Virus record (IMG/VR): IMGVR_UViG_3300048924_000131
Location: 1 to 29,404 of that record
Strand: one strand, 5' to 3'
DNA length: 29,404 nt
Source: a virus
Shown: in pieces, positions 4,005 through 6,867 of the stretch
Layout of the letters: each line of letters opens with the position of its first letter
Position numbering within the stretch: position 1 is the first letter of the stretch
The notes under the pieces: model-generated
What the model was told of the DNA's origin: nothing
What the model saw: the letters and a program-made list of their open reading frames with translations, nothing else
The model's database searches: none
Position numbers and translations under genes: made by a program

Positions 4005-4595
4005 TCATGCCGCGTGCGCGGCTGGGGTGGCCGCTGCAGCGAGGTGGTTGATGGACTCGGTGACCTTGCCGTATATCTCGACATCGGTGCCGTACGCGGT
4101 GAAGCAGCGGGTGTGCGGGCTTTTGTTGCCGATGCTCAGGATGGTGGTGACACCTGAGCGCGATTGCGTGCGATGCACCGCGACCTGAAGGGGGTAATCG
4201 AAGCCCATGTCGAGGCCCAGCACGCCACCGGTGCGTACCAGCTCGAACACGCGTTGCTTGTCGGAGACCTCGAAGCGGCCGTATTCGCGGCTGGCATGCG
4301 GGCGATGCACCAGGTCGCTGGTGTTGCTCGCGTCGAACGGGCCGTTGGCAATCTCTTCGATAAAGTCGGCCAGCTTGAGGTGCGTTTTCTTGTCGTTCTG
4401 CAGGGTCAGCGTGTGGCGCTCGCTGGCCAGCTCGACGACGAAGGTGCTCTCCTTTGTACCGCGTTCGACCTTGAGACGGAACGCCAGACACTCACGCTTG
4501 GGCGCTGTCCGGAGGACGTGGTTGAAGGTCTCGGTCAGGTTGACCTGGGCGTTGAGCAGTTGCAGCGTGCGGTTGTCGATTTTGTACTTGATCAT
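4005..4595 (-). CDS. Hypothetical early phage protein
   Basis: The 196-residue protein starts MIKYKIDNRTLQLLNAQVNL and ends in an Ala-rich tail (NHLAAAATPAAHAA). It looks like a soluble alpha/beta protein with several short strands; no membrane segment, signal peptide or metal motif is seen. The start at 4595 overlaps the stop of the first operon gene (ATGA), and the stop lies 10 bp before the KilAC gene, so all three are translated in series from the CI-repressed promoter. The family was not recognised; a role in early takeover or in regulating the lysis-lysogeny choice is only suggested by position. Confidence 0.7.
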   Translation of the reverse strand: MIKYKIDNRTLQLLNAQVNLTETFNHVLRTAPKRECLAFRLKVERGTKESTFVVELASERHTLTLQNDKKTHLKLADFIEEIANGPFDASNTSDLVHRPHASREYGRFEVSDKQRVFELVRTGGVLGLDMGFDYPLQVAVHRTQSRSGVTTILSIGNKSPHTRCFTAYGTDVEIYGKVTESINHLAAAATPAAHAA

Positions 4596-4802: not shown

Positions 4803-4831
4803 AATATCAACCAACGGTTGATTAATGTCAA
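4803..4831 (-). promoter_or_regulatory. Leftward early promoter (PL-like)
   Basis: On the minus strand, TTGACA (4831-4826) is a perfect -35 hexamer and GATATT (4808-4803) a 4/6 match -10, separated by exactly 17 bp. Transcription would begin near 4796, about 28 bp before the first gene. Both 17-bp operators overlap it, so CI binding should block RNA polymerase directly. Confidence 0.7.
4806..4822. promoter_or_regulatory. Repressor operator OL-a
   Basis: ATCAACCAACGGTTGAT is a perfect dyad with 7-bp arms around three bases. It covers the spacer and part of the -10 of the leftward promoter and matches the operators beside cI (consensus ATCAAC-N5-GTTGAT). Confidence 0.75.
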
Positions 4832-4843
4832 CTATCGGTTGAT
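4827..4843. promoter_or_regulatory. Repressor operator OL-b
   Basis: GTCAACTATCGGTTGAT matches the operator consensus ATCAAC-N5-GTTGAT with one change in the left arm. It overlaps the -35 of the leftward promoter, and its centre lies 21 bp (two helical turns) from that of OL-a, fitting cooperative dimer binding. Confidence 0.68.
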
Positions 4844-4965
4844 CATGCTTGTGTTGACTTAGCAGATGCTGCATTCCGGAGGGAGTAGTGGCATATTGCT
4901 TCTTGATCTTTTTTGCTGATTCACCCTTATTACACAAAACCATCAAAAAGCAGGCTGCTGAAATC

Positions 4966-4994
4966 GTCGTCGTTTAAATGGAATTTCATATATA
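4966..4994 (+). promoter_or_regulatory. Weak candidate promoter for the cargo gene
   Basis: TATATA at 4989-4994 would serve as a -10 in an AT-rich stretch just upstream of the cargo gene. The -35 position (around 4966-4971) matches poorly. It is offered only because the gene is divergent from its left neighbour and convergent with cI, so it needs its own promoter. Confidence 0.25.
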
Positions 4995-5011
4995 GGGATT
5001 GGGGTATTGAG

Positions 5012-6034
5012 ATGTATCTTCTAAATTTTAATATGCTTCGACCAGGTGATGTGATTTTTACATCAGAAAAAACACTGAAAAGCGGCGCGATTCGTAAAGT
5101 CTCGAAGGGTGAGTCATCCCATGTTCTACTTTGCGTAGGACACGGTAGTTGCATTCATGCTGATAAGAAGGGTGGCGTACACTCTTTCAATATTCAAAGG
5201 CTATTAATTAGCGATCCGGCTAATGTTTCAGTGAGAAGACTTTCCGGTGAGTATGCTTTCGATAAGGTAAAAGTGAAGTGCGTAACTGATTATGCACGAA
5301 GCAAGATAGGTACTAAGTACTCATGTTGGGAAGCTGTTAAGTCATTGCCAATTTTCAAGGCGGATTTTTTTAAGAATTTTTCAATCGATTTGCATAAGCC
5401 TTCAAGCCTTCAGTTTTGTTCAAGGTTGGTTGCTGAGTCGTATAAAAATGCAGGGATAAAGCTAGTTGATAATCCATCATCTTGCACGCCCGCGGATCTT
5501 GAGGGTTTTCCGGGGTTCAGAATTCTTCAAGATGTTTTTGTTCTGGCCAGCAAGGAAGATATTTCGTTCGCTCTGGATGTTGCAAGAGACAAGATAAAGA
5601 AGCAGACAGACATTACAAGTAAATTGTTAAGCAGCGTGCGTGAAAGATATGGAAGTCACATTCAAACCTTGAACGACGTGTTACAAACTGCTGTGGATGT
5701 CGATGGGGCTGATGCGGTAATAGCAGATATTACAGAAAAATCTGGATACCTCTATATGTGGCGGGATGACTTGGAGGCATGTCCTTGGCGTTATCAGTCG
5801 GAGATTTTCCGAAGCATTAAAATGCCAAATGGTGAACGTCAATCCACGATTATGCGAGAACTAAAAATGGCCCGAACTGACATAGAGAGGTTTACTGAAT
5901 CGCTAGAAAGAGCTCAGAAACGTTTGTTGGAATATCCTTTGGTTACTCTAGAACAGCAAGTTACGCTCTATACCACCCTTCTGCGGCTTGCGCACCAGAG
6001 GCAGTCGGTATTTTTGTATTTGGAAACTCAATAG
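5012..6034 (+). CDS. YiiX/C92-like permuted papain-fold cargo protein with helical C-terminus
   Basis: The 340-residue protein opens with MLRPGDVIFTS, then SHVLLCVGHGSCIHAD (H37), a GVHSFNIQRLL strand and YARSKIGTKYSCWEAV. QFCSRLVAESYKNAG (C136) and TPADLEG follow. This order (GD strand, His, late Cys-Ser/Glu-Lys/Arg-Leu-Val) is the circularly permuted NlpC/P60 pattern of the YaeF/YiiX C92 family, so a cysteine hydrolase acting on peptide, amide or lipid bonds is likely. Residues about 180-340 are mainly helical and not recognised. The ATG at 5012 has GGGG seven bases upstream and sits right before the conserved core; the longer frame from TTG 4913 has no support. The gene is strongly AT-rich, unlike its neighbours, and lies between the leftward promoter and cI, convergent with cI. 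It is probably a lysogenic-conversion or defence gene. Confidence 0.7.
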   Translation: MYLLNFNMLRPGDVIFTSEKTLKSGAIRKVSKGESSHVLLCVGHGSCIHADKKGGVHSFNIQRLLISDPANVSVRRLSGEYAFDKVKVKCVTDYARSKIGTKYSCWEAVKSLPIFKADFFKNFSIDLHKPSSLQFCSRLVAESYKNAGIKLVDNPSSCTPADLEGFPGFRILQDVFVLASKEDISFALDVARDKIKKQTDITSKLLSSVRERYGSHIQTLNDVLQTAVDVDGADAVIADITEKSGYLYMWRDDLEACPWRYQSEIFRSIKMPNGERQSTIMRELKMARTDIERFTESLERAQKRLLEYPLVTLEQQVTLYTTLLRLAHQRQSVFLYLETQ

Positions 6035-6070
6035 TCAGGCTGTTTTCCTTGTTTGTTATCGTGACGACAT

Positions 6071-6802
6071 TTATTCAGGGATGAATGAGCCTACTACTTT
6101 TCCACATATATGGGTCTCTTCCGTGATGTCAATGATTGGGTATTGCGGATTGATCGGTCGTAAGTACTGCCTTCCAGCGTCCTCTACCAATATTTTAAAA
6201 GTTGCCTCATTAGTTCTCGGAACCCTTGCAATGACGCGGTCACCAGTTTTGGCTTCTGCCTCAGGATCTACAAAGATGATGCATCCCGTCGGATAGCTTC
6301 GTCCTGGCCCAGGATTAGTCATTGAATCTCCGAGAACTTTCAAAGCATATCCATGGACGCTAATCGGTACGGGGCACGAAAGCCAAGAGTCAGCGTCATA
6401 GGTCTCAAAGTTTGAAATTGCTTCGCACCATGCACCAGCCTGAACCCATGATATCAATGGAACTTTACCAAAGCGCTGATTGACTTCGCTTACGTTACTT
6501 CCGACGCCAGTAGCTATTTTTCGAACGTTACTTTCCCCGGTCTGCTCTTTCGGCATCACCCCGTACTCAAGCCATTCCCGCCTAACGCCCAGCCATGAGC
6601 AGAGGGCAGACATGCTGTCAGCCTCAGCCATTGCCTCTCCATTCAGCCACTTGCTGATTGCCTGGGTCGTTTTATCAACACCCACGCTTTTCAGCTGACG
6701 ATGAATATCCACTCCACGACCACGGGCGCGTACGCCGGCATCGTCGAGAGCTTCGTGTAGGCGCTCGCTAAAAGCTGCGCGGAGGGAATTTTTATCAACC
6801 AT
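6071..6802 (-). CDS. cI: CI/PrtR-type repressor with S24 self-cleavage domain
   Basis: The 243-residue protein has an N-terminal helix-turn-helix (about residues 33-57, KTTQAISKWLNGE) and a C-terminal LexA/UmuD S24 domain. Visible are the Ala-Gly scissile bond A122-G123 (SWVQAGAWCEA), nucleophile S160 (LGDSMTNPGPG) and general base K203 (ATFKILVED). It should bind the ATCAAC-N5-GTTGAT operators, keep both early promoters off, and cleave itself when RecA is activated by DNA damage. The ATG at 6802 must be the start because an in-frame TGA lies five codons upstream. No ribosome-binding site precedes it, and an operator overlaps the start codon. Confidence 0.95.
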   Translation of the reverse strand: MVDKNSLRAAFSERLHEALDDAGVRARGRGVDIHRQLKSVGVDKTTQAISKWLNGEAMAEADSMSALCSWLGVRREWLEYGVMPKEQTGESNVRKIATGVGSNVSEVNQRFGKVPLISWVQAGAWCEAISNFETYDADSWLSCPVPISVHGYALKVLGDSMTNPGPGRSYPTGCIIFVDPEAEAKTGDRVIARVPRTNEATFKILVEDAGRQYLRPINPQYPIIDITEETHICGKVVGSFIPE

Positions 6803-6850: not shown

Positions 6851-6867
6851 ATCAACCGCAAGTTGAT
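6851..6867. promoter_or_regulatory. Repressor operator OR
   Basis: ATCAACCGCAAGTTGAT is a perfect 6-bp dyad around five bases, identical in arms to OL-a near 4814. It sits at the probable transcription start of the rightward early operon. A half-site GTTGAT at 6838-6843 may mark a weaker neighbouring site. Confidence 0.75.

Follow-up and report, generated by a model that had tools for sequence, protein, structure and literature searches.

The gene at positions 5012-6034 (+ strand) of a 29,404-base IMG/VR virus record, analyzed here over its whole length and called the window, encodes a 340-residue protein of two parts, a hydrolase domain of the permuted NlpC/P60 (C92) type and, C-terminal to it, a conserved helical half. 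We propose, with a probability of about 0.6, that this cargo gene would encode a defence hydrolase, excluding superinfecting phages, carried by a Pseudomonas prophage in a slot between the leftward operators and the repressor gene cI. The main evidence goes beyond what a single sequence can offer, as it comes from related phages, in which the same position is a hypervariable cargo site.

A hypervariable cargo slot beside cI

The elements that define the slot in the window are the following.

4005-4595, - strand: conserved early gene encoding 196 amino acids (phrog_15582, from profile matches); left border of the slot
4806-4844, no strand: two operator-like palindromes, ATCAACCAACGGTTGAT (4806-4822) and TCAACTATCGGTTGA (4827-4844), over a leftward promoter-like site; like the leftward operators (OL) of lambda
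4851-6070, no strand: exchangeable cargo segment, inferred extent, starting after the leftward operators and ending at the stop codon of cI; guanine-plus-cytosine fraction (GC) 0.41 upstream of the gene
5012-6034, + strand: cargo gene, ATG at 5012, 340 amino acids, hydrolase domain of the permuted NlpC/P60 (C92) type followed by a conserved helical half
6071-6802, - strand: cI-like repressor with a LexA-type C-terminal domain (phrog_4, E 1.5e-42); right border of the slot
6851-6867, no strand: matching palindrome ATCAACCGCAAGTTGAT, upstream of cI, like a rightward operator (OR); read from the sequence

In relatives, the slot was measured as the stretch between the counterparts of cI and of the 196-residue gene in the fetched loci. 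The 120 loci gave 89 distinct slots of 273-4559 bp, ten of them empty (273-285 bp) and 79 filled. Since the empty slots end shortly after the operators, the exchangeable segment was taken to span 4851-6070. The main cargo proteins of the filled slots belong to about 41 unrelated families. Cargo runs antiparallel to cI in 74 of the 79 filled slots, and its GC (median 0.41) lies below that of the adjacent cI in every one. Unrelated cargo occurs in phages whose flanking DNA is about 86-94% identical on either side (about 2.1 kb each), and no relative of our cargo gene was found in the other fetched slot loci. The gene is thus not a fixed core gene in relatives, in agreement with the first-pass annotation, an earlier reading of this DNA from its letters alone, which had called it cargo. 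Judged from these sequences, the slot is a hypervariable site, exchanged as a cassette. Because about 41 unrelated main families can fill the position, and 10 of the 89 slots hold nothing, the cargo protein is not needed for lysogeny. Of the 398 Pseudomonas genomes sampled, 47 contain the 196-residue marker gene.

Content of the slots

PADLOC models match the cargo in 32 of the 79 filled slots (E <= 1e-10), a count that takes in whole BLAST-linked families and is a minimum with this library, as the cargo representatives were not all scanned one by one. Two known systems are represented, AbiC in seven slots and Septu (PtuA/PtuB) in six. The candidates are PDC-S49 (four slots), PDC-S21 and PDC-S20 (three each), and PDC-S25 and PDC-S28 (two each); Septu and AbiC are established systems, and the PDC models are candidates only. 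The tally is completed by a partial PD-T7-3 in two slots, a weak DzbB in two and an AriA/PtuA-like ATPase in one. Pfam adds Cap15, NACHT, SIR2-like, putAbiC, KAP, ABC-3C and reverse transcriptase domains. No PADLOC family was assigned to the cargo of 47 of the 79 filled slots (again with representatives not all scanned individually).

Two further observations concern cargo of this site. In phage MT837188.1 (L003:4905-6716, from a human faecal sample), the same slot holds a 603-residue protein that is 72% identical to the cargo of locus L046. A cargo family of about 600 residues recurs in loci L105, L115, L070, L076 and L090 with no PADLOC match, and a relative of it adjoins a C92 gene in an unrelated bacterium (L242:5866-7686). 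This family is a good candidate for another defence protein.

A permuted C92 domain with a complete catalytic set

The gene at 5012-6034 is real. The ATG at 5012 was preferred over an upstream TTG at 4913 because relatives also start with 'MYLL/VYLL'. The copy in the window is intact; sharing 26-44% of its residues with relatives, it has kept all catalytic residues and most of the C-terminal motifs. As the first-pass annotation had noticed, the gene is AT-rich, with a GC of 0.418 (0.387 at third codon positions); the window as a whole has 0.592, cI has 0.501 and the next leftward gene 0.619. The hydropathy of the protein peaks at 0.92 over a 19-residue stretch and no convincing membrane helix is present; the protein is probably cytoplasmic. 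Its parts are as follows.

5012-5545, + strand: YaeF/YiiX-like permuted papain-fold domain, residues 1-178, from Foldseek, VIA and profile search
5120-5122, + strand: codon of catalytic His37, kept in 105 of 106 distinct aligned proteins and compared with the residues described in PMC3142127
5156-5158, + strand: codon of His49, probable third polar residue, counterpart by alignment of Glu64 of BcPPNE
5318-5320, + strand: codon of Tyr103, counterpart of the conserved NlpC/P60 tyrosine, present in 106 of 106
5417-5419, + strand: codon of catalytic Cys136 within QFCSRLVA, from the alignment with relatives
5546-6031, + strand: conserved helical half, residues 179-340, with D234, SGYL 244-247, Y261, LY 319-320 and R330 conserved

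The YiiX/C92-like core had been recognized earlier from its motifs, and the assignment stood up to profile and structure comparison. The order of the motifs is permuted, RPGDVIF being followed by His37 and then Cys136, so that the histidine precedes the cysteine. Pfam returned Peptidase_C92 (PF05708) at E 1e-9, with 39.1 bits against a cut-off of 27. An AlphaFold2 model of the whole protein, computed from 23 aligned sequences, reached a predicted local distance difference test score (pLDDT) of 91.8 and a predicted template modelling score of 0.87. Among solved structures, Foldseek matched this model at E <= 0.001 with two only, 3kw0 from Bacillus cereus (5.3e-5) and YiiX from Escherichia coli, 2if6 (1.8e-4). 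VIA gave the same two proteins, with a Z of 16.0 for 2if6 (145 residues, 2.7 A) and 15.7 for 3kw0, and it placed the human PLAAT/HRASLS lipid enzymes well below YiiX, at a Z of about 8 over about 100 residues. A profile built from the relatives recovered both of them, at 3.2e-11 and 1.9e-10. With the single cargo sequence, phmmer found no solved relative and returned weak nucleoporin coiled-coil matches only, which were taken as chance. The NCBIfam equivalog cut-offs were far from reached (YaeF 34.5 against 279, YiiX 17.6 against 216, YebB 12.6 against 227). The PHROG label 'enoyl-CoA hydratase/carnithine racemase-like' (phrog_1128) was dropped, as the match covers the C92 part, whose fold is that of YiiX.

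The catalytic residues of BcPPNE are Cys154, His49, Glu64 and Tyr127 (PMC3142127); in the same order, Cys136, His37, His49 and Tyr103 of the cargo protein align with them. At the position of His49 of the cargo protein, most of the 106 aligned proteins have Asp, His or Glu. The QFCSRLVA motif was itself a search pattern, which accounts for part of its conservation; the motif is mostly present as well in the relatives that a pattern-free profile search found in Pseudomonas genomes, although in a few of these a simple regular expression failed to find it or labelled it wrongly. Altogether, the alignments show a complete catalytic set.

A conserved helical C-terminal half

Residues 179-340, modelled alone, are all helical with a pLDDT of 92.1. 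With this half alone, Foldseek gave nothing at E <= 0.001 and the best VIA Z was 7.5, within the expectation for helical bundles. MukF, CorA and similar matches were not counted as relatives. The half thus remains as unrecognized as the first-pass annotation had found it, although the novelty of its fold does not follow from the failure to find a convincing solved relative. The C92 domain and the helical half occur together in about 100 distinct proteins of plasmids, prophages and chromosomes.

Relatives outside the slot and their neighbours

Full-length relatives occur in 100 plasmid records, at 25 loci on viral contigs and at the 80 genome loci that were kept, mostly in Proteobacteria. None came up when the viral and genome contigs were scanned with the window protein alone, whereas scans based on the alignment found them. 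The distribution of the relatives is patchy: full-length matches were found in about 14 of 398 Pseudomonas genomes, and 50 of 5426 E. coli genomes had a match, in every case on a plasmid.

Several relatives lie near defence genes. On one viral contig (L011:7986-10951), the C92 gene stands directly upstream of a pair from a cyclic-oligonucleotide-based anti-phage signalling system (CBASS), made of a CapV-type phospholipase and a CD-NTase. AbiH was found near relatives in L004 and L020, AbiU in L017, and both PifA and a ThsB-type TIR protein in L265. On E. coli IncF plasmids (L008:3044-5186, L301:2585-4772 and L302:3956-6142), YacAB precedes the C92 gene, and a gene for a TIR-domain protein follows about 90-100 bp after it on the same strand; the C92 and TIR genes of these plasmids are a possible two-gene system. 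A protein of about 950 residues with a weak LmuA-like N-terminus is encoded 3' of the C92 gene in eight loci, mostly of Rhizobiales (L005, L214, L218, L228, L230, L254 and others), and L213:1711-5089 carries a tandem pair of C92-type proteins. Neighbour clustering gave no fixed partner gene across the family, and a two-gene system of that kind was rejected.

Other sites are occupied as well. In five loci on P2-like contigs, the C92 gene lies between gpS- and gpV-type tail genes, and in five loci it lies just downstream of an integrase gene, these gene names being given by inspection. A megablast search with the P2-like form against the E. coli genomes returned nothing.

Locus layout and expression

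The product of cI matches the LexA model TIGR00498 under its cut-off. The first-pass annotation had seen no operator immediately upstream of the cargo gene and had likened its place to that of lambda rex. The former holds within 160 bp of the ATG on that side, yet operator-like palindromes lie just beyond, at 4806-4822 and 4827-4844. As for the latter, the likeness to lambda is one of place. The rexAB genes of lambda lie between the leftward operators and cI and are read from the cI transcript, and their proteins are of a type unrelated to the cargo protein. The cargo gene likewise has an OL-like pair of operators on one side and cI on the other. The two genes are on opposite strands, however (+ for the cargo gene, - for cI), and converge. 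Co-transcription of the Rex type is therefore ruled out by strand: the gene is unreadable from the cI transcript and needs another promoter.

Elsewhere in the window, a second AT-rich open reading frame (1428-1850, + strand, 140 amino acids, GC 0.42, phrog_17938) encodes a hydrophobic product directly 3' of the integrase gene; it is possibly another accessory gene.

Proposed function and rival explanations

A defence or exclusion role, which the first-pass annotation had read from place and composition, appears well supported indirectly, by the content of the slot and by the neighbours of relatives, even if the rex analogy it leaned on failed in orientation and transcription. Several points weigh against this role. 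Many slots are filled with families that have no defence match, and PADLOC (2023 library) gave no model match for the cargo protein itself, its only hit being at E 0.053. The closest orthologues, found at a Pseudomonas chromosomal site (L293:7899-8906 and L294:7428-8423; about 44% identity), stand alone, and the one in L294 is interrupted by stops. The neighbour examples were picked partly by eye, with no matched control set, and plasmids and prophages carry non-defence cargo as well. Finally, a simple scan between 4851 and 5006 found no sigma-70-like site better than those in shuffled sequences, which makes lysogenic expression a supposition.

The protein probably works as follows. In the lysogen, the gene would be expressed from a promoter of its own within 4851-5011. 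The helical half would sense infection, or a phage product, and restrain the enzyme. Once freed, Cys136 would hydrolyze or transfer an acyl or amide bond. The most likely substrate is a membrane lipid or a lipid-modified target, and the resulting membrane damage would stop the infecting phage while sacrificing the cell. An anti-phage action of this protein would thus probably be abortive. The choice of a lipid or acyl target is suggested by the permuted relatives, which have hydrophobic substrate pockets and phospholipase or acyltransferase activities (PMC3142127, PMC12994826). A fatty acid was found with YiiX (PMC3142127), and Tox-Act1 is a permuted NlpC/P60 phospholipase whose toxicity needs its His and Cys (PMC12994826).

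A different chemistry could be envisaged for a defence gene, in which the C92 domain would have peptidase or amidase activity towards a protein of phage or host, a cell-wall fragment or another small molecule. The lack of a convincing membrane helix would suit it; however, the hydrophobic pockets of the permuted group, the cleavage of phospholipids by the relatives that have been tested and the PLAAT fold match (Z about 8) make it rather unlikely. The gene could also be a moron of some other benefit to the lysogen (in stress, competition or virulence), or a selfish addiction module. The best PHROGs match does belong to the moron/auxiliary category and the E. coli relatives do adjoin the YacAB toxin-antitoxin pair, but the same slot often has antiviral systems in relatives, and the family has no recurring partner gene fit to be an antitoxin; we consider this explanation unlikely.

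Two other explanations are much less likely still. Its place beside cI, in convergent orientation, could recall a phage regulatory or lysogeny-maintenance gene tuning repressor expression, an idea made very improbable by the variety of unrelated cargo, or the empty site, found at that position in relatives. It is just as hard to believe in a decaying or chance insertion devoid of current function: low GC and the internal stops of one Pseudomonas chromosomal orthologue would speak for it, and the preservation of the window copy, at such a distance from its relatives, speaks against it.

Comparison with known systems

The cargo protein shares with the YaeF/YiiX enzymes (PF05708; 2if6, 3kw0) the permuted fold, the GD motif and the His/polar/Tyr/Cys set. 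It differs from them by an extra helical half of about 160 residues, by its mobile prophage or plasmid context and by its equivalog scores below cut-off. Plasmid proteins named 'YiiX/YebB-like N1pC/P60 family cysteine hydrolase' by the Prokaryotic Genome Annotation Pipeline (PGAP), from Providencia, Rhizobium, Klebsiella and E. coli, belong to the same two-part family (about 27-37% identity). Their name describes the domain only, and the Rhizobium forms have a further cysteine-containing tail. Tox-Act1 (PMC12994826), likened here by description only, is of the same permuted NlpC/P60 type but is a secreted antibacterial effector of the type VI secretion system, with an immunity protein.

A parallel can be drawn with the antiviral hotspots of P2, P4 and Vibrio K139-like phages (Rousset et al. 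2022, PMC9122126), which are also hypervariable, defence-rich sites of temperate phages, one of them beside cI. Like a hotspot, our slot has fixed flanks, many unrelated inserts, empty sites and known defence systems among the inserts; it differs in its Pseudomonas phage group and in its position, which has cI on one side and, on the other, the leftward operators and then a 196-residue early gene. A literature search, which covered few subscription journals and preprints and mostly titles and abstracts, found no account of an anti-phage role for C92, YiiX or NlpC proteins, nor of the Pseudomonas slot. The first-pass annotation had likewise known of no described system with this combination, and PADLOC 2023 has no family model for it. 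The domain family and prophage hotspots are already known; the cargo protein is probably a defence protein against rival phages that no catalogue lists.

A bolder hypothesis, possible though somewhat doubtful, would be that of a widespread single-protein anti-phage system, in which a lipid (de)acylase of the permuted NlpC/P60 type, checked by a new helical sensor half, would be fired by infection, and whose Pseudomonas hotspot, itself undescribed, would hold many other uncatalogued systems. The slot has a broader use, as one search, from cI to the 196-residue gene, lists the cargo of this Pseudomonas prophage backbone, and the filled slots with no PADLOC family make it a source of further candidates. 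If the defence role is true, permuted NlpC/P60 enzymes, which take part in lipid metabolism and virulence and serve as toxins of the type VI secretion system, would be bacterial antiviral effectors too.
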